Source: Helicobacteraceae bacterium
GTDB taxonomy: Bacteria > Campylobacterota > Campylobacteria > Campylobacterales > Sulfurimonadaceae
Assembly (NCBI GenBank): GCA_013138865.1
Contig: WTBY01000024.1
Coordinates: 62,001-126,000, forward strand
Direction of reading: 5' to 3'
Length of the DNA stretch: 64,000 nucleotides
Both the position numbers and the translations under genes were made by a program. Positions within the stretch are counted from its first letter, which is position 1. Every line of letters starts with the position of its first letter. The notes under the pieces are model-generated. The model made no database searches and was not told the DNA's origin. It saw only the letters and a program-made list of their open reading frames with translations. Positions 17,374-26,037 of this stretch are shown here, one piece after another.

Positions 17374-18819
17374 TTATAGGTATTGTGAAATATCTACCTC
17401 ATCTATCTGTTCTGGTTTAAGTCTATCTTTTGCATACTCTTTATAAATTCCACTACTCAAAAATAGTTTAAATAGATCAGGATCTAAGTGTTTGTCTTTA
17501 GCCATAAAGCTAAGAATTTTTACTGAAGCTGAGAGTGTTTTAGGCTCTTTATATGGTCGATCAGAAGCAGTAAGTGCTTCAAATACATCTGCGATCGCCA
17601 TAACTCTAGCAGGGATAGACATATCTTCAGCACTAAGTTGTCTTGGGTACCCTGTTCCGATCAGTGTTTCATGGTGAGATCCTGCATATAGTGGAACATT
17701 TTTTAGGTTTTCAGGAAAAGGTAGTTGTTCAAGCATTTTAATACTCATAACAACATGCTCTTGAATTTTAAACCTATCTTCATAAGTTAGTGTACCAGCA
17801 GAGATACATATATTTGTAAGCTCACCTAAATCATAAAGGTTTTCAGGTACTTTAGTTTTAAAACCAAATCTTTCATACTCTTCATAATCAAAATATTCTC
17901 GCTCAATTATATGTCTTTTTTTATCAGATAAAAGTTGCTCAACCGCTGGAGTTTCAGACTTTTCAAGAAGAACTCTCTGTTTCTCTTCATGTGCTAAACC
18001 TAAAGTGTCATCAAAATTTCTAACCCAAGTTCTTGAAGCTATTTCTCTAATTTTCTCTTTAGATTCATCTTTCATATATTCACCACCAACATTAGCAATA
18101 GCTAATATTTCATACTCTTCTACAAGCTTTTTATGTTCTACTTCAAGCCATGCATCAACAGTACTTACATCTTCACCAGCAAGTTTTTTCTCTAACGCTT
18201 CTATGGTTAGATCTCTATGAATAACTTCAAAACGAGTTCTTACTTCATGTATTCTGTTGTAAATAGTTTCTAGCTTTGTAGCTTTGTCAACTATGTATTC
18301 TGGGGTTGTAACTTTACCACAGTCATGTAGTAATGAAGCAATATTTAACTCACGAAGCTCATCTTCGCTCTCTAGTTTAAACTCTTTAAAAGGCTCTTCA
18401 TCAGAATTAGAAGCCTCTTTTACCAACATCATAGAGAGCTCAGGAACACGAATACAGTGACCACCAGTATACTTGCTCTTAGCATCAATAGCACCAGCAA
18501 TAAGCTCTATAAAAGAGTCCATAAGTTTTTTCTGAGACTCTTGAAGTGCTGTAACTTCTACAAGTCTATCTTGTAGTTCATCGTACTCTTTACGCTGTCG
18601 TTTATCAGCACGCGACATGATCTTATCTTGTCTTTTAATATCTTTAGCAAGCTTATCAATAGTCATATTGAAAGTTATTTTCAACTCATCAATTTCACCT
18701 ACTAATTTATTTTCCTCTTGATTAGACTCTTCTTCTCTTCGATCGTTAGTAGTAGAAGCTCTCTCTTTTTCTCTTCGTTCTGCTCGTTCTGCTTTACGGC
18801 GTTCTCTATCGTCACTCAT
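17374..18819 (-). CDS. HD-GYP domain protein, probable c-di-GMP phosphodiesterase
   Basis: A cytoplasmic protein of 481 residues. A highly charged Arg/Glu-rich N-terminus and coiled coil (about 1-100) precede a divided HD-GYP domain. The HD part has GGHCIRVPEL near 119-128 and LHDCGK with His165-Asp166 and Lys169. After an insert of about 130 residues (roughly 205-340), the second part has HHE and GTGYP near 395-407 and the block ADVFEALTASDRPY. HD-GYP proteins hydrolyse c-di-GMP to pGpG or GMP. The usual D in HHE..DGxGYP is absent (HHETLIGTGYP). It lies 7 bp downstream of the siaC-like gene, at the end of the Lap/Sia operon. Confidence 0.85.
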   Translation of the reverse strand: MSDDRERRKAERAERREKERASTTNDRREEESNQEENKLVGEIDELKITFNMTIDKLAKDIKRQDKIMSRADKRQRKEYDELQDRLVEVTALQESQKKLMDSFIELIAGAIDAKSKYTGGHCIRVPELSMMLVKEASNSDEEPFKEFKLESEDELRELNIASLLHDCGKVTTPEYIVDKATKLETIYNRIHEVRTRFEVIHRDLTIEALEKKLAGEDVSTVDAWLEVEHKKLVEEYEILAIANVGGEYMKDESKEKIREIASRTWVRNFDDTLGLAHEEKQRVLLEKSETPAVEQLLSDKKRHIIEREYFDYEEYERFGFKTKVPENLYDLGELTNICISAGTLTYEDRFKIQEHVVMSIKMLEQLPFPENLKNVPLYAGSHHETLIGTGYPRQLSAEDMSIPARVMAIADVFEALTASDRPYKEPKTLSASVKILSFMAKDKHLDPDLFKLFLSSGIYKEYAKDRLKPEQIDEVDISQYL

Positions 18820-18826
18820 AATTTAC

Positions 18827-19204
18827 CTACTTTGTAACTAACTCTATATCTAAATCTTCAAAATCTTCAACAAAGTCTTCACCAGCTTCTTCAGCTGACT
18901 CATTTTCTTCATCGTAGATCCAGTTAATTTTAATAGTATTGTCATCTTTAGCTTCATCTAAAAGATCAAAAAAGTCAAAAAATAGCTTAGAACTACTAGA
19001 GTTAAAATATATAATTTCCATATTAACAGTAGTTACATCTTGTGCGTTTTCCTCAAAGTAGTTCTCTAACCACTCCATCATAGGTTTATAAAACTCAAAT
19101 GTATTTTCAGGATATGATTTACCTACTAAACTTATAATACCTGACGTTGCATCTAGCTTTATTTCTGGTGTATACTTTGTTGCTTCAAAATTTAGATTTT
19201 CCAT
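18827..19204 (-). CDS. siaC: SiaC-family (DUF1987) partner protein
   Basis: An acidic protein of 125 residues of the DUF1987/SiaC family. The diagnostic pattern is an N-terminal YTPEIKLDATSGIISLVGKS with YPENTFEFYKPMMEWLENYF, then MEIIYFNSSSSKLFFDFFDLL. The Ser run at 69-72 is where the family carries its phospho-acceptor Thr/Ser. In Pseudomonas aeruginosa unphosphorylated SiaC binds and activates the diguanylate cyclase SiaD; SiaB phosphorylates it and SiaA dephosphorylates it. Here it follows two SiaB-like genes, but no SiaA phosphatase or SiaD-type cyclase lies next to it. The target is therefore open. Confidence 0.85.
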   Translation of the reverse strand: MENLNFEATKYTPEIKLDATSGIISLVGKSYPENTFEFYKPMMEWLENYFEENAQDVTTVNMEIIYFNSSSSKLFFDFFDLLDEAKDDNTIKINWIYDEENESAEEAGEDFVEDFEDLDIELVTK

Positions 19205-19225
19205 TTTATTCCTTTTTATTTTAAT

Positions 19226-19765
19226 TTATAGTGTTGCTTCAAAACGAAAGTAAAATCTATCTTCACTAAGCGCTTTAAAATCATAATCAATTGTAGAACA
19301 TCTCTTTGCAATTTCATAAAAGCCTATTCCACCACCTTTATTATGCGTATCTTTACCACTTTTTCTTGCTTCTTTATAAAGCTTTTTTACACCAGCAATA
19401 TCAGTATCAACAATGCCTTGAAGTTTAGGTTCTAGCTTTTGTCTATCTTCTAAACTAACAACATTTTTACTTAATATATAGTACTTACCATCAGGTTTTT
19501 TGCCCAGAATTATAATTCCTTTAGGATCAAACTCTTTGCCATCTATCTCTATTTTTTTTGTATAATTCATCATATTTTGAGACAACTCTATAAAAATAGT
19601 AAAAATATTAGTAGACTCTTTTAAAGTTAAGTTTACACTTTCGCTCTCTTTTTCAATAGCCTCTGTCATGCCTACTATCAATGATTGTGTTAAAAATCCA
19701 CCATAAGTCAAGAATACTACCCCATTATTTTCAAGGGCATCTACTAATTTTTCTGTATCTATCAA
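19226..19765 (-). CDS. siaB: SiaB-family (DUF6272) protein kinase, second copy
   Basis: A cytoplasmic protein of 179 residues with a GHKL-like ATP-binding layout. ELSQNMMNY at 60-68 supplies the N-box Asn and KGGGIGFYEI at about 143-152 is a glycine box. The segment KKLYKEARKSGKD between them is shared with the neighbouring kinase. SiaB in Pseudomonas phosphorylates SiaC. The gene is 3 bp downstream of the other SiaB-like gene and 21 bp upstream of siaC, so both kinases probably act on that partner. It lacks membrane and sensor domains. Confidence 0.8.
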   Translation of the reverse strand: MIDTEKLVDALENNGVVFLTYGGFLTQSLIVGMTEAIEKESESVNLTLKESTNIFTIFIELSQNMMNYTKKIEIDGKEFDPKGIIILGKKPDGKYYILSKNVVSLEDRQKLEPKLQGIVDTDIAGVKKLYKEARKSGKDTHNKGGGIGFYEIAKRCSTIDYDFKALSEDRFYFRFEATL

Positions 19766-19768
19766 AAA

Positions 19769-20314
19769 TTATCCTTTTGCATTATTCACAGTTCTTTTTT
19801 TCTTTGGAACTACAATAGCTTTAAATTCAAATATATATTTCTCTTTATTTATCTCTTTAAAATTATACCCTATTGATTGTGTTAATTTAGCTATTTCATA
19901 AAAACCTATACCAGCACCTTTACCATGCTTATCTTTTCCACTTTTTCTTAACTCTTTATATTTTTTTTTAATTCCATCAGGATCTAAAGAGTGAATTTCA
20001 ATTAGTTTAGGTTCAATTTTTATTTTGTCATCTATGGAGATGATATTTTTGCTTTGAACATAAAATAATTCTTCACTCTCTTTAATAACTTCTATTGAGC
20101 CAGTGGCTTCAACTGCTCTAGAGTTTAAGGTATCTGTTTTAGAGTAGTTCATCATATTTTGCATAAGTTCTATAACTATTGTAGATATATAACTTTGCAT
20201 TCCCATATTTTCTATTGAGGTTTCTATTATGTCCATACTATTTTTAATAACACTCTGTTCTATTAGACCATCATGTTTGTATATCATACTTGACACTAAA
20301 ACCTCTCTTAACAT
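19769..20314 (-). CDS. siaB: SiaB-family (DUF6272) protein kinase, first copy
   Basis: A protein of 181 residues, clearly paralogous to the next gene and to the C-terminal 155 residues of the large LapD-like protein at 23003-25387. The N-box ELMQNMMNYSK is at 49-59, and YKELRKSGKDKHGKGAGIGF runs at about 119-138. A basic tail (KKKRTVNNAKG) follows. It resembles the fused domain more closely than it resembles its downstream neighbour, which suggests copying between gene and domain. The start is uncertain: the Met at 20287 has a GAGG further upstream, while the one given has a weak ribosome site. An AT-rich hairpin separates it from the lapD gene upstream. Confidence 0.8.
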   Translation of the reverse strand: MLREVLVSSMIYKHDGLIEQSVIKNSMDIIETSIENMGMQSYISTIVIELMQNMMNYSKTDTLNSRAVEATGSIEVIKESEELFYVQSKNIISIDDKIKIEPKLIEIHSLDPDGIKKKYKELRKSGKDKHGKGAGIGFYEIAKLTQSIGYNFKEINKEKYIFEFKAIVVPKKKRTVNNAKG

Positions 20315-20365
20315 AGTAAGTTATCTACGCAATAATAAAACTAACTACCAATACTTTAACATAAA

Positions 20366-20383
20366 AATAATAACATTATTATT
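20366..20383. terminator. AT-rich hairpin between lapD and siaB genes
   Basis: A perfect 8 bp inverted repeat AATAATAA/TTATTATT has a 2-base centre. It is followed by a T run on the plus strand and, read on the minus strand, by TTTTTAT. It lies in the 89 bp gap between the end of the second lapD gene and the start of the first siaB gene. It may act as a weak terminator or attenuator dividing the Lap part from the Sia part. With no G or C in the stem the call is weak. Confidence 0.35.
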
Positions 20384-20403
20384 TTTTCACATCTAATTAA
20401 CCG

Positions 20404-22380
20404 TTATGATACTTTAATACTATCAGTAATTGGTCCTTGCACACTATCTATATGCATAGTTTGTAATTTTTTAAGCTCATCTTCTGTTTTTACAAAAGTT
20501 GCAATTATATCTATACCTAAAGAGTCTGTTATAACTTGTAGTGCACTCATAGAATCTTGTGACTGATCGAGTAAAAATGCACAGTCTGCTTTTAAGAATT
20601 TAGGATTTAGCTCTTTTAAGTAAGTAAAGTTATTTGACTCTCCTGTAAATGCATTAAGTCCAAAACCAAAGTTATATTTATTGAATAGTTCAACAAAACT
20701 TTTAACTGTTGCTGTGTTGTTAATGGCAAAACTGTCAGTAACCTCAAAAGATAGATCAAACTGTATAGTTTTTGCGTACTCATTAAGTAGAACTGATAGC
20801 TCATCAAAAGCTTTTGGATCTTTTATAAACTCATTCGATAGACGAATAGAGCATATACTTCCATCAAGTTCTGCATGTCTTTGAGTTATAAGATCTTTTA
20901 GAGTAACTATATAAATTTTAGAGACAAGTCCAAGGTTAATAGCTGGTGCTATAAAGTCACCATAGAAGTACTTTTTATTTTCGCCACCATCTATAGTAAA
21001 TGTCATAACGCTATGCTCTACAGTTTTTGACTTAGCATTCATTGTAGGCCAAAACTTTAGACTAAATAAGTTAGTATGAATTGACTCTTCGATGATTGTT
21101 CTCCACTGCTCTTTACCCATAGCATTTTCATCATTTTGCTCTTCATAAAGGTGTATATTATTACCCTCTTTAGCTTTTGCTTGTGATAGTGCATTATCTG
21201 CACGAGTCAGTAATTCACCAACATTAACAGATGGTTTATATCTATAAATACCAATATCTATAAATATTTTTTTATTATCTAACTCATTACTCTGCAGTAA
21301 AGCCTCAAAGTTTATGTTGATCTTTTGAGCAACTTCATATCCCATTTTAGCTTCACAATCAGGTAACATAAGAGTAAACTCTGTGCCATTTACACGTGCG
21401 ATCAACCTCTCTTCATACTCTTTACAAACATTGTTAAAAGATGAGGCTAAGCTTAAGAACATATCATCAGCTTTTTGTCGACCTAGAACTTGGTTAATCG
21501 CTTCAGCTCCACTAAGTGCTATAAATATTACAACACCACCCTCTGTTTTATTTGCTTCTTTTATAAGGTCTGGTAGTTTTAACATAAGGTAACGTCTATT
21601 AAATAGTTTAGTTGTCGGATCGTTATAAAGAAGTTCTCTATTCCTTTGAGCTGCTTCATTACCTTTTTCAAAAATATCTTCAACTTTGTTAACCATAGCA
21701 TTCATCCCGTAAACAACATCTTTAAACTCAGTTGTATATGGGATCTGCTCTTGAATAATAAACTCATTTTTAAGTATAGACTCTGCTTGGTGCTGAACTC
21801 TATAGAGAGGTTTTAGTACAAAATGAAGAACTGAACTAAGAACCAAAAGTGCAAGCGCTACTGAGATCGCAAATATATAAAGAAGGTTTGTAAACATCTT
21901 ATATAAAGCTTTATAAACTATGCCAGGATCACCTTCAACACTTAGAACACCTAACATATTAAAGCCATCCATAATATCTTCGCTTACAGTTTGTAGTTTA
22001 ATACTACTAAACTCTATAAACCACAGCGGTACACCCTCAACTGGATCATTGTCAATTTGCATATACTCAAACGAACCACTCTCAGAGCTAAACTTAACCA
22101 TTCTGTAGTAACCACCACCTACAGAGCCATCTATTTCTGATTCTATAAGTGCGTTATTACTACTCTCTTCTATAATTTCTTCATCATCACTACTCTCTTC
22201 TGTAAAATTATTTGCTTCTATTATTTTTTGCATTAGCGTTTGAAGATTATTTATTGTCGTTTGATTAAGTGACTCCAACATATCTTTTTTAGCCGATTGA
22301 TAGTTAATCGCCATGACCGAGCCAAGCATAATAATAATAATTAGTGAGACCATCAAGGCCATTTGTTTAAAGAGTGTCAT
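20404..22380 (-). CDS. lapD: LapD-like c-di-GMP receptor with degenerate GGDEF-EAL
   Basis: An inner-membrane receptor of 658 residues. A membrane helix at 8-26 leads into a periplasmic LapD_MoxY_N-type domain (about 27-160) with VPLWFIEF at 117-124, the Trp-bearing loop that holds LapG in known LapD proteins. A second helix lies at about 166-188, then HAMP. The GGDEF domain has NGTEF in place of GGDEF, and the EAL domain has lost the EAL triad. Both should be catalytically dead, so it binds rather than turns over c-di-GMP. The Met at 22380 is chosen because it overlaps the lapG stop (ATGA) and matches the paralogue's start MTLFKQMAL. An acidic Glu/Ser insert (60-80) sits in the periplasmic domain. 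Confidence 0.85.
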   Translation of the reverse strand: MTLFKQMALMVSLIIIIMLGSVMAINYQSAKKDMLESLNQTTINNLQTLMQKIIEANNFTEESSDDEEIIEESSNNALIESEIDGSVGGGYYRMVKFSSESGSFEYMQIDNDPVEGVPLWFIEFSSIKLQTVSEDIMDGFNMLGVLSVEGDPGIVYKALYKMFTNLLYIFAISVALALLVLSSVLHFVLKPLYRVQHQAESILKNEFIIQEQIPYTTEFKDVVYGMNAMVNKVEDIFEKGNEAAQRNRELLYNDPTTKLFNRRYLMLKLPDLIKEANKTEGGVVIFIALSGAEAINQVLGRQKADDMFLSLASSFNNVCKEYEERLIARVNGTEFTLMLPDCEAKMGYEVAQKININFEALLQSNELDNKKIFIDIGIYRYKPSVNVGELLTRADNALSQAKAKEGNNIHLYEEQNDENAMGKEQWRTIIEESIHTNLFSLKFWPTMNAKSKTVEHSVMTFTIDGGENKKYFYGDFIAPAINLGLVSKIYIVTLKDLITQRHAELDGSICSIRLSNEFIKDPKAFDELSVLLNEYAKTIQFDLSFEVTDSFAINNTATVKSFVELFNKYNFGFGLNAFTGESNNFTYLKELNPKFLKADCAFLLDQSQDSMSALQVITDSLGIDIIATFVKTEDELKKLQTMHIDSVQGPITDSIKVS

Positions 22381-23000
22381 AGTTTTTTCCTTTTCATTCC
22401 AGCTTCTAGCTTTTTCCATTTTTTCGATTTTGCGCCTGTATCACCATTAATGAGCTTTACCACTTTTATAATGTCTTTTCTTTTGGAAGCTGGCAGTATT
22501 TTTTTGTTGTTATTATCTAAAATAAGTATATCTTTTCTTGATTTTGGTTTTTTCTTTTTAAGGTATGCCAAAACCATATGAGAGACTTTTTTACCTCTTC
22601 TATCTTTATAAACAACATATGCAAATTTCATACGTTTTGGATCAACACCAAGCTCTTTTAAAATATAGTACTTAGCGATCGTATAGTCTTCACAATCACC
22701 CTTACCTTTTCCAACAAACTCATATAAAGTAGCCCAATAATCTTTAACACCATAAACTTTTTTATCACTCTTATATTTAATATAATTAACCCAATTATTA
22801 ACAGTGTTTAACTTTTTCGCTGTACTTTGAGACTTAAGTTTTTTAAGTAGTGCTTTATCCATATCTAAAAAACGATTTTTAGAGAATTTACCATACTTCT
22901 TTTCTGCTTGAGATATTACTTTTTTAGTTACAAGATCAGTAGCTACTATATTTGCATAAAAAAACAGCATGCCAATCATAAAAATTAAAATAAACTTCAT
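22377..23000 (-). CDS. lapG: LapG-like periplasmic cysteine protease
   Basis: A transglutaminase-like cysteine peptidase of 207 residues with a signal peptide (about 1-20). The catalytic triad is visible: Cys103 in KGDCEDY, His141 in VSHMVLAY and Asp162 in LILDNN. Asp102 and Glu104 beside the Cys match the calcium-site region of LapG. In pseudomonads LapG cuts the N-terminal retention module of a giant adhesin such as LapA, releasing the cell from a surface, unless LapD binds it. The gene lies between two lapD-like genes, 2 bp after the first and overlapping the second by 4 bp. The basic C-terminal tail is longer than usual. No adhesin gene lies in the window. Confidence 0.87.
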   Translation of the reverse strand: MKFILIFMIGMLFFYANIVATDLVTKKVISQAEKKYGKFSKNRFLDMDKALLKKLKSQSTAKKLNTVNNWVNYIKYKSDKKVYGVKDYWATLYEFVGKGKGDCEDYTIAKYYILKELGVDPKRMKFAYVVYKDRRGKKVSHMVLAYLKKKKPKSRKDILILDNNNKKILPASKRKDIIKVVKLINGDTGAKSKKWKKLEAGMKRKKL

Positions 23001-23002
23001 AA

Positions 23003-25387
23003 CTAGTCACTCTTCTTTATTTTGTTATCTATACGTACTTTAAACTTAAAGCTATAGCGTTCTTTATTTAATTCATCAAACCTATACTCTATTTTAGAAG
23101 TTAACTTGGCTATTTCATAAAAACCAATTCCACCGCCTTTAGCATGAGTATTTACGCCTGATTTTCTTAACTCTCTGTATCGCTTACGAATACCAGCTGA
23201 GTCCAAAGTCAATATCTCTGCTAGTGTTGGCTCTATTCGTTTCATATCTTCTAAACTAATGATATTTTCACTATGAACATAGTAATTGAAATCTTCATCT
23301 TTAGTTACTTCTATGTAACCAGTTAAACTTAACTGATCTGATTTTAGATCTTTTGAGTAGTTCATCATGTTTTGTAGTAGTTCAACTGAAACGGTAGAGA
23401 CTTTAGTCATAAGTGAAAAGTTAACGATATTATCTTCAAGATTATCCATACAGTAACTTACAACACCTTGTGTTATGGTACCGTTGTATTTCATAATGTG
23501 TTTTATACTAGCACCATAAATACCTAGCTCTCGTAACTTGTTAAAGTCACTCTCATCTTTTGCATCTTCACTAAACACTTTTATGTTTAAGAGTTTAGAG
23601 AGTTCACAAATAGACTCTACAAAGCTCTGCTTAGAGCGATCAGAACTTATATCATTTGTATATTCTCTTGCTAGCCTTATATAGTCTAAGTTTAACTCTT
23701 TCAAAGAGTCTAAAGGAATAAATTTTGTTTCAAAACGTTTAAGTATAACTTTTGCACCATTATCATGGACAAGTGTTATAAACTTTTTAAAAGCTTCTAT
23801 ATCTCTAACACATCCATAAGCTGTCATACTAAAAACAAGTTGTGAAGATATATCTTTGTTACTATTTAGTGTCTGTATCAACCAACTGTTAAACTCATCG
23901 TCTAAAAGTGAGTCAAAAGCTAAGTTTATAAGGATCTCATTTTTAACTTTTTTTACTCTTATATATTCTACGATCTGACCTATTACAGCCTTATCAAAAT
24001 CCACGATTTTGTTGTACATCTCAGCTACGGAGATAAAAGTACCTATTTGAATAGTTTTGTTTGAACTATCAACAGCAGAAGTAAACGCTTCTTCTAAAAG
24101 CACTTTACGATCGGAGTCCATGGAAAGAGCCTGATGTATATAACCAACATGAAAAGTTGAGTTATCAATAACCCCGCACACTAACTCTTTCCAAACTAAC
24201 ATATCTTTAGCAAGGTCGCCCTTGTCTCTTATAAAAAATTCATTGGCTCCAACTGTTTTGGCTTTATCATAAGCCATATTTGCAAACTCAAAGATCTCAT
24301 CAGTAGTACTAATAGGGTTAAATGGAGTTGCACCTATATGTGCTACATTTGAGATTCCATACTCATCACCTAAACTTTTAAATGAATTTTGGAGTTCTTT
24401 TGAAAGTTTTAAAATTTCATCATAATCAGTTATTTTAGATATAAGTGCAAAGTTAGAACCAAAGAAGCGGTAAGCAGTAGTTTTAACGTTACACGTACTT
24501 AAAATATTTGCAAAATCTTTTAAAAATTTATCTACTATATTTTTTGCATTATTTTTTGCAAACTCTCCAAAATTATCAATTTTTATACTAAAGATGTAAC
24601 CATCTTTTTTCTTAATAAACATCATCTTCATATCTGTATTAAAAGTCTGTTCTTGCTCTAGTCCTGTAAGATCATCTTTTGAGAGTTCATCTGTCATTTT
24701 TTCTAAATTATTATTTAACTTAGAGATCATACTTTTTATTTTGTTTGACATATCATTCATTGATAAAGATACGTTTTTAAGCTCTAGCGTTGAAGGTATT
24801 TTTTCTATAGTTTCAAACTTACCTTGTGAAATATTTTTTGAAAGAATTTCGATATCTTTTAGAGGCTTAAGTATAAAACGAAGCATAACACTCAAAATAA
24901 TTAAAAATATAGAGATAGAGATACCAAAAATATAGAGATAATTTTCAAACATTTTGAAAAGTGCTTTATAAACTACAGCAGTATCACCTAAAACTGTAAC
25001 TTCTCCGATTATATCCCAACCTGCCGTTACAGTTGCAGAGATACTCTCTAACTCTATATTTGAGTACTCTATAAACCAAAGAGGAACACCTTTTACTGGG
25101 TCATTATCAAGCTGTTTATAGTCACTCTTACCATCAGTCGATTGAAAATCAATCATCTTAAAATAGCCACCACCAGCTTCAGCGTCTATTATGCTCTCTA
25201 ACTCTGCTTTGTCACCACCTGTCTCTGCTAGTTTGTCTGCTAATGTTCCAATATTATTTACTGTAGTTTGAAAAAGTGTTTCAACCATATCTGATTTAGA
25301 TGCTTTATAGTTAATAGCCATAACAATACCAAGAAGAGCAACTATCATGATAGTAATAGCAAGTGCCATCTGTTTAAAAAGTGTCAT
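23003..25387 (-). CDS. lapD: LapD-like receptor fused to a C-terminal SiaB-type kinase domain
   Basis: The protein has 794 residues with domains in this order: membrane helix 8-26; LapD-type periplasmic domain about 27-150 with VPLWFIEY at 101-108; second helix 151-170; HAMP about 171-225; degenerate GGDEF about 235-385 with FFGSNF (308-313) for GGDEF; degenerate EAL about 395-628 with no EAL triad; and a SiaB/DUF6272 domain about 633-787. The last has ELLQNMMNYSK (669-679) and AKGGGIGFYEIAK (749-761). The first half mirrors the other LapD in this operon. The fusion would let one receptor hold LapG outside and phosphorylate a SiaC-type protein inside. No stop or frame change breaks the join. 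It is probably the first gene of the operon. Confidence 0.85.
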   Translation of the reverse strand: MTLFKQMALAITIMIVALLGIVMAINYKASKSDMVETLFQTTVNNIGTLADKLAETGGDKAELESIIDAEAGGGYFKMIDFQSTDGKSDYKQLDNDPVKGVPLWFIEYSNIELESISATVTAGWDIIGEVTVLGDTAVVYKALFKMFENYLYIFGISISIFLIILSVMLRFILKPLKDIEILSKNISQGKFETIEKIPSTLELKNVSLSMNDMSNKIKSMISKLNNNLEKMTDELSKDDLTGLEQEQTFNTDMKMMFIKKKDGYIFSIKIDNFGEFAKNNAKNIVDKFLKDFANILSTCNVKTTAYRFFGSNFALISKITDYDEILKLSKELQNSFKSLGDEYGISNVAHIGATPFNPISTTDEIFEFANMAYDKAKTVGANEFFIRDKGDLAKDMLVWKELVCGVIDNSTFHVGYIHQALSMDSDRKVLLEEAFTSAVDSSNKTIQIGTFISVAEMYNKIVDFDKAVIGQIVEYIRVKKVKNEILINLAFDSLLDDEFNSWLIQTLNSNKDISSQLVFSMTAYGCVRDIEAFKKFITLVHDNGAKVILKRFETKFIPLDSLKELNLDYIRLAREYTNDISSDRSKQSFVESICELSKLLNIKVFSEDAKDESDFNKLRELGIYGASIKHIMKYNGTITQGVVSYCMDNLEDNIVNFSLMTKVSTVSVELLQNMMNYSKDLKSDQLSLTGYIEVTKDEDFNYYVHSENIISLEDMKRIEPTLAEILTLDSAGIRKRYRELRKSGVNTHAKGGGIGFYEIAKLTSKIEYRFDELNKERYSFKFKVRIDNKIKKSD

Positions 25388-25422: not shown

Positions 25423-26037
25423 CTAAAAACTTTTAAACTTTTTTTTTGTAAAACTTTTCAACACTTCAATAGCATTTTTATTCTCTTTAACAACAGCAAA
25501 GTCATAAGGTGAGTAACCATCGCTATTTTTTACATTTGGCTCTGCACCTACATTCATTAAAAACTCTATTATTATCGGAACTCCTGTAAATGCAGCTTGA
25601 TGCAGTGGCGTTATAGAGTCATCATTTTCCAAATTCACATCTGCACCACTAATAGCTAAAAACTTAACAAGTCGTAACCTCTTTTTTTTAATTGATAAAA
25701 GTAGTGGTGTATTTCCTCTGTTGTCATAAGCATCAATATCAGCTCCATTATCAAGTAAAATTTGTGCTATCTTTAGATCACGCTTTTTTATGGCTATATG
25801 TAGAGGTGTAAGTCCTGCTGCGTTTTGAACATTTACATCTGAACCATTTTTAAGTAACTCTTTTACTTTTTCACTGTTTTCATAGTAAACTGCGTCATGC
25901 AAAGCAACTCGTCCATCTACACTATCTGCTAGCCCTAACACAAAGAACATTGATAGTAAAAAAACAACTCTTATAACATGTGTATTTAAATTATTTATTG
26001 GCAACTTACTATTCAACATATATTCCTTTTGTTTCAT
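25423..26037 (-). CDS. Exported ankyrin-repeat protein
   Basis: The protein has 204 residues: an N-terminal hydrophobic segment at about 22-37, then about four to five ankyrin repeats. These are visible as recurring blocks GLTPLHIAIKKRDLKIAQIL, GNTPLLLSIKKKRLRLVKFL, SITPLHQAAFTGVPIIIEFL and GYSPYDFAVVKENKNAIEVL. Ankyrin repeats bind proteins; small periplasmic ones in this phylum have been linked to oxidative-stress defence. It is read in the same direction as the Lap operon but lies downstream of the opposite-facing mqnP start and 35 bp before lapD, so it may be co-transcribed into that operon. Function unknown. Confidence 0.8.
   Translation of the reverse strand: MKQKEYMLNSKLPINNLNTHVIRVVFLLSMFFVLGLADSVDGRVALHDAVYYENSEKVKELLKNGSDVNVQNAAGLTPLHIAIKKRDLKIAQILLDNGADIDAYDNRGNTPLLLSIKKKRLRLVKFLAISGADVNLENDDSITPLHQAAFTGVPIIIEFLMNVGAEPNVKNSDGYSPYDFAVVKENKNAIEVLKSFTKKKFKSF

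Follow-up and report, generated by a model that had tools for sequence, protein, structure and literature searches.

Two biofilm pathways described in pseudomonads are among the closest relatives of the system considered here. In Pseudomonas aeruginosa, the Sia pathway controls synthesis of the second messenger cyclic diguanosine monophosphate (c-di-GMP), and SiaC has so far been known as the activator of one cyclase, SiaD. For the kinase of this pathway, SiaB, residue E61 is the predicted catalytic residue (PMC7647112). The nearest published idea to a broader role for SiaC is that DUF1987 proteins modulate adjacent proteins (PMC8457831). In the Lap pathway, which controls adhesin release, R450 is a c-di-GMP contact of the EAL domain of Pseudomonas fluorescens LapD (PMC3032553), and the tryptophan of LapD that binds the protease LapG sits in a GWxQ motif (PMC4359373). 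The window examined here is the whole 64,000-nucleotide stretch, corresponding to positions 62001-126000 of contig C76 in a 3.03-Mb Campylobacterota genome, whose family, judging by named relatives, is probably Sulfurimonadaceae. Between positions 17374 and 25387 of its minus strand, genes of both pathways are encoded together with an HD-GYP phosphodiesterase. The explanation favored on balance is that they form a partner-switch module with a phosphodiesterase output, in which a LapD-SiaB fusion replaces the SpoIIE input.

In order of transcription, the genes encode the LapD-SiaB fusion (23003..25387), LapG (22377..23000), a plain LapD without SiaB (20404..22419), SiaB1 (19769..20314), SiaB2 (19226..19765), SiaC (18827..19204) and the HD-GYP protein (17374..18819). 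The gaps between them are +2, -43, +89, +3, +21 and +7 base pairs (bp), the negative value being an overlap of LapG and LapD when the listed LapD ATG is taken as the start. All seven are open reading frames (ORFs) and each is identified by both Pfam and NCBIfam, which confirms the set of same-strand Lap, Sia and HD-GYP genes described in the initial annotation. The same annotation reported that SiaA and SiaD are missing. This is true of the operon, where no SiaD diguanylate cyclase was found and an HD-GYP protein with a SiaD-like stalk occupies its place. Contig C76 has no match anywhere to SpoIIE, the SiaA-type phosphatase, so a SiaA hidden on the contig was rejected. The genome, however, carries 10 SpoIIE domains elsewhere and five further SiaC genes, one of them part of a SiaA-SiaB-SiaC set (contig C17).

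When named genomes were scanned with the fusion protein as the query, 32 loci were recovered, and every best match fell in its SiaB part. SiaB, SiaC and HD-GYP genes occur together in 27 of these loci, with the HD-GYP gene after or near SiaB and SiaC, and most of them adjoin a gene for a SpoIIE/SiaA-type phosphatase. The carriers include Arcobacteraceae, Sulfurimonas, Sulfurospirillum, Marinobacterium and other Gammaproteobacteria. By this survey, SiaC often accompanies an HD-GYP protein in module-bearing bacteria in the position taken by the SiaD cyclase in P. aeruginosa, and there is little doubt that the Sia-HD-GYP set is a partner-switch module. The architecture closest to the window is that of an Arcobacteraceae locus, L101, which runs from a SpoIIE-SiaB fusion through SiaB and SiaC to a long HD-GYP protein.

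The residues expected of a working module are in place. SiaC of the window is recognized at E 1.7e-40, and its S69 (codon 18998-19000) aligns with the P. aeruginosa phosphosite T68 in the context N(T/S)SS. By family assignment and tree position, SiaB2 corresponds to the module's ordinary SiaB, and the catalytic glutamate is kept in all three SiaB domains of the operon (IELSQN, IELMQN and VELLQN), as is the G-box. The HD-GYP protein has 481 amino acids and is a predicted phosphodiesterase, its HD, HH and GYP motifs being intact (H121, H165-D166, K169, H355, H382-H383-E384, G390-Y391-P392 and D411). It belongs to a long subtype with an insert of about 140 residues between the HD and later motifs, also seen in loci L101, L113, L118 and L142-L144. 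The subtype is encoded next to SiaC in several families; the remaining SiaC-linked HD-GYP proteins have about 265 residues. A weak TrmD-like match of the insert (E 0.7) was taken as chance.

The link between SiaC and the phosphodiesterase is most apparent at the N-terminus of the latter. SiaC-linked HD-GYP proteins share roughly 60 N-terminal residues with the pattern KDIKRQxKIMxRSDKRQxxEYDELQ, and a profile of these stalks, A1, has invariant positions R27, I31, D36, Q39 and L56. In the crystal of P. aeruginosa SiaC with SiaD, the contacts of the SiaD stalk include R74, K77, V78, R80, I81, S82, D83, R84, Y85, Q86, M88, R90 and D91 (PMC8457831). A gapless alignment shows R74, K77, V78 (as I), S82, D83, R84 (as K), Q86 and D91 kept in most of 29 HD-GYP stalks; R80, I81, Y85, M88 and R90 are not preserved. 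In the window protein the predicted docking motif, R63..KI...ADK.Q....D80 (18580..18633, minus strand), is in register with the same eight SiaD positions. The structure model of this protein has one helix, residues 3-114, leading directly into an HD-GYP fold with HD-GYP matches in the PDB. When 298 genomes of the phylum were searched with A1, clear matches were found in eight, all SiaC-positive and all within 1.5 kb of SiaC, and one further marginal match (6.7e-4) lay elsewhere. The association of the docking helix with SiaC has a Fisher p of about 1e-12, and only one of the 16 HD-GYP matches in the source genome has the helix.

A second stalk profile, A2, was built without Pseudomonas from SiaC-adjacent histidine kinases and cyclases of Campylobacterota, one gammaproteobacterium and alphaproteobacterial plasmids (Azospirillum, Tistrella and Methylobacterium), all carrying the related motif [KR][IV]...SD[KR].Q. 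Searched against 177,635 PDB sequences, it matched SiaD from the SiaC-SiaD crystal best (7e6g, E 4.2e-8), with both SiaC-binding motifs, and the next match is at 0.39. In the 298 genomes its convincing matches fall solely in SiaC-positive genomes, the remainder being short and at chance level, and it recovers SiaC-linked HD-GYP proteins and a type I secretion adaptor absent from its own alignment. Direct comparison of the A1 stalks with A2 gives a probability of 95.7 and an E of 8.7e-9. Given the conserved linkage, the docking residues in register and a helix whose above-chance matches all lie beside SiaC, control of the HD-GYP protein by SiaC, an idea already raised in the initial annotation, is very probable, and docking of SiaC on the stalk is likely. 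Two stalk proteins near CheX-like sequences were also noted. One combines a stalk, HATPase and CheX-like region and adjoins SiaC (L132:3997-6150); the other precedes a small CheX/CheC-like protein and a receiver (L101:12881-14945). A SiaC-controlled branch is possible for both.

On the input side, a single ORF provides a physical junction of Lap and Sia. The 794-residue fusion, assigned by Pfam and NCBIfam in a single frame, contains a periplasmic LapD_MoxY_N domain (residues 24-144), a weak HAMP, degenerate GGDEF and EAL domains (the latter at 425-624) and SiaB (DUF6272, residues ~629-794). The SiaB domain (23006..23503, E 4.6e-23) keeps the N-box glutamate and the sequence GGGIGFYEIAK. A tree of 72 SiaB domains places it with SiaB1, which is 51% identical to it, in a 100/100 clade whose other members are two SpoIIE-fused SiaBs, one GAF-like-fused SiaB and one free SiaB. 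SpoIIE-SiaB fusions were seen in two Arcobacteraceae. Since the fused SiaB clades with SpoIIE- and GAF-fused SiaBs, LapD appears to occupy the place of the phosphatase or sensor. The tree leaves unsettled whether the fusion and the plain LapD arose by LapD duplication. A GAF-like-SiaB fusion in an Oceanospirillaceae metagenome-assembled genome (L105:2073-3167) has no SiaC found nearby.

From these parts, the following sequence of events may be proposed. SiaB2, and probably SiaB1 as well, would phosphorylate SiaC at S69. Unphosphorylated SiaC would dock on the helical stalk at the N-terminus of the HD-GYP protein, as it does on that of Pseudomonas SiaD, and alter the activity of the enzyme in one direction or the other. 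The input, elsewhere a SpoIIE protein, would be replaced by the LapD-SiaB fusion, whose gene lies with those for LapG and another LapD, so that the state of its LapD part, whether set by c-di-GMP, LapG or a periplasmic input, could determine SiaC phosphorylation and, through it, c-di-GMP breakdown. Adhesin release would thereby be coupled to turnover of the messenger. Phosphorylation of SiaC by the fused SiaB under LapD control is given slightly better than even chances, and closure of a feedback loop by c-di-GMP, of either sign and presuming that c-di-GMP is sensed, is a tentative addition that is rather doubtful at present.

Several observations weigh against this explanation. The fusion is known from one genome. 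Since no phosphatase is found on the contig, SiaC would have to be dephosphorylated by a SpoIIE protein encoded elsewhere in the genome. In the EAL domains of both operon LapDs the catalytic residues are absent and the R450 position is not arginine, which makes a c-di-GMP input to them doubtful. At the docking interface, the window HD-GYP protein has alanine at contact S82 and its SiaC has serine in place of R103. Profile A1 alone did not recover SiaD from the PDB at E values up to 10. Both profiles were built from SiaC-adjacent proteins, which makes their positive matches partly circular; the absences, the match to SiaD and the cross-matches are free of this circularity.

The degenerate EAL domains also bear on the direction in which the fusion may work. 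Instead of LapD governing the kinase, the fused SiaB, on binding or phosphorylating SiaC, could move the periplasmic domain of LapD and gate LapG, with SiaC replacing c-di-GMP as the cytoplasmic signal. Besides the loss of R450 and of the catalytic residues from the EAL of the fusion, the LapG-binding motif speaks for this arrangement, since it is GWDI in the fusion and GFNM in the plain LapD, and so do the two complete SiaBs already available to SiaC. However, the fused SiaB retains its kinase glutamate and G-box, and the fused members of its clade otherwise carry sensor or phosphatase input domains, which leaves the reverse arrangement unlikely, at perhaps one part in four of our belief. Most Campylobacterota LapDs keep GW, and a LapD on contig C82 of the same genome likewise lacks arginine at the R450 position. 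With both EAL domains degenerate and phenylalanine at the LapG-binding tryptophan of the plain LapD, the earlier suggestion that both LapD proteins respond to the same c-di-GMP signal is unproven. The structure model of the fusion (predicted local distance difference test, or pLDDT, ~88 for the SiaB part and below 50 for much of the EAL part) was discarded as a source for the EAL domain, that part being too poor.

The remaining Lap residues are more conventional. The cysteine (GDCEDY), histidine (SHM) and aspartate (ILDNN) of the LapG protease (Peptidase_C93/BTLCP) are in place by alignment with 4u65 and 4fgo, its score falling short of the 320 bits set for the NCBIfam LapG equivalog. Both LapDs have the LapD_MoxY_N, GGDEF and EAL domains and score below the LapD equivalog cut-off of 1020 bits; in the plain LapD, of 671 residues, GGDEF (NGTEF) and EAL are degenerate.

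Coiled coils precede many output domains. The HD-GYP helix could thus be an ordinary signaling coiled coil, with SiaC acting on another partner, and the failure of A1 alone to find SiaD would fit such a view. It is an improbable one, given the contact-by-contact register with SiaD, the near absence of the helix both in genomes that lack SiaC and in the remaining HD-GYP proteins of the source genome, and the reciprocal matches with A2, an independent profile by which SiaD is found too.

Among the 298 genomes, LapG is present in 83, SiaC in 14 (13 above the cut-off) and both in five, and the two are side by side in just one of those five, the source genome. Their co-presence is not enriched (p 0.36), and conserved Lap-Sia synteny was rejected on these two grounds. 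The linkage of Sia with HD-GYP is conserved, that of LapG with SiaC is not, and the joined Lap-Sia circuit of the initial annotation stands as a physical junction in the fusion ORF, not as a conserved arrangement. No second LapD-SiaB fusion was found in 228 genomes of the family, 397 of the phylum or the 32 loci, and plasmids have ordinary SiaBs and no such fusion; the one other long SiaB frame above the cut-off in the family and phylum genomes is a SpoIIE-SiaB protein on contig C3 of the same genome. That a Lap set was merely inserted beside an ordinary Sia-HD-GYP module, leaving a fusion without regulatory meaning, would suit this lack of conservation and a chance of about 4% for LapG-SiaC adjacency in such a genome (simple placement model), but it is the least probable alternative on three counts: the fusion is one continuous ORF whose SiaB residues are intact, the free LapD precedes a SiaB that clades with the fused domain, and at two other loci of the genome Sia genes are combined with those for type I secretion and for retention-module proteins.

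Those two loci, on contigs C12 and C3, support a functional tie between Sia and Lap-type adhesins in the source organism. On C12 (L133, C12:28000-42000; L177, C12:10001-30000), a same-strand string encodes stalk-bearing and other histidine kinases, SiaB, SiaC, a 500-residue protein, TolC, an ATP-binding cassette (ABC) protein, HlyD and a 1549-residue protein. The last, whose gene adjoins those for HlyD and ABC, has a LapA-like retention N-terminus with TAAG at residue 114, which we take to be the type of site that LapG cuts, as in LapA. The C3 cluster comprises a retention-module protein, the SpoIIE-SiaB fusion, SiaC, TolC, ABC and HlyD; the retention-module matches at both loci are all below the curated cut-off. 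On C3, the 803-residue receiver-PAS-SpoIIE-SiaB fusion (L134:4658-7069) carries both a phosphatase and a kinase domain directed at SiaC in a single chain. The HlyD-type adaptor of this cluster, of 624 residues and near SiaC (L134:11156-13030), has a PAS domain and an N-terminal motif like that of SiaC stalks, and SiaC might control secretion directly through it. A second LapD-LapG pair of the genome, on C82 (L137:7370-9888), is without Sia genes. Directly after SiaC, two loci encode proteins of about 500 residues (L136:6936-8480 and L133:4671-6173) that appear related to each other and have no clear Pfam family.

At the edges of the operon, an ankyrin-repeat gene (25423..26037, minus strand) lies 35 bp upstream of the fusion and may belong to the same transcription unit, perhaps as its first gene. 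The 89-bp gap between LapD and SiaB1 contains a perfect 11-bp inverted repeat of A and T only, with a 2-bp loop (20363..20386), a possible operator or weak terminator. A scan of the region for promoters and terminators, including this gap, gave scores no better than shuffled sequences.

In the literature searched, a limited collection of papers, there is no report of a SiaC-controlled HD-GYP protein or of a LapD-SiaB fusion; these are the new points of the analysis. They suggest that, besides the synthesis of c-di-GMP, its breakdown can be under partner-switch control. Should the docking motif prove correct, many Campylobacterota and Gammaproteobacteria regulate this breakdown by partner switching, and the clients of SiaC become predictable from sequence, with histidine kinases and the secretion adaptor as further candidates. 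More speculatively, and with somewhat less than even confidence, SiaC could be a general phosphorylation-gated adaptor that recognizes [KR][IV]...SD[KR].Q in cyclases, HD-GYP proteins, histidine kinases and a type I secretion adaptor; with LapD joined by the SiaB fusion, adhesin retention, export and c-di-GMP turnover would come under one phospho-switch. The LapD-SiaB fusion is a natural experiment that places adhesin release and a phospho-switch in one polypeptide. Since it links both biofilm pathways in one chain, their relation is directly testable.

Compared with known systems, the locus resembles SiaABCD of P. aeruginosa in its SiaB kinase, its SiaC phosphosite in N(T/S)SS and a client whose N-terminal stalk bears the SiaC motif (PMC8457831, PMC7647112). 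It differs in that the client is an HD-GYP protein instead of SiaD, SiaA is missing from the operon, and there are three SiaB domains, one of them fused to LapD. With LapD-LapG of P. fluorescens it shares the LapD domain order, the LapG catalytic residues and the adjacency of the genes (PMC3032545, PMC3032553, PMC4359373), whereas here one LapD carries SiaB, R450 is missing in both LapDs, GW is changed to GF in the other, and the candidates for LapA and type I secretion genes are on other contigs instead of in the operon. DvhD/DvhG of Desulfovibrio vulgaris also combines Lap-type protease control with an HD-GYP domain (PMC13090378). In DvhD, however, that domain has lost catalysis and acts as a receptor inside a membrane protein, whereas the HD-GYP of the window is a separate protein with no predicted membrane part and with its motifs kept. 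The Arcobacteraceae locus L101 has a SpoIIE phosphatase as its input half and no Lap genes, but it presents a fused input-SiaB, SiaB2, SiaC and long HD-GYP protein in the same order as the window.

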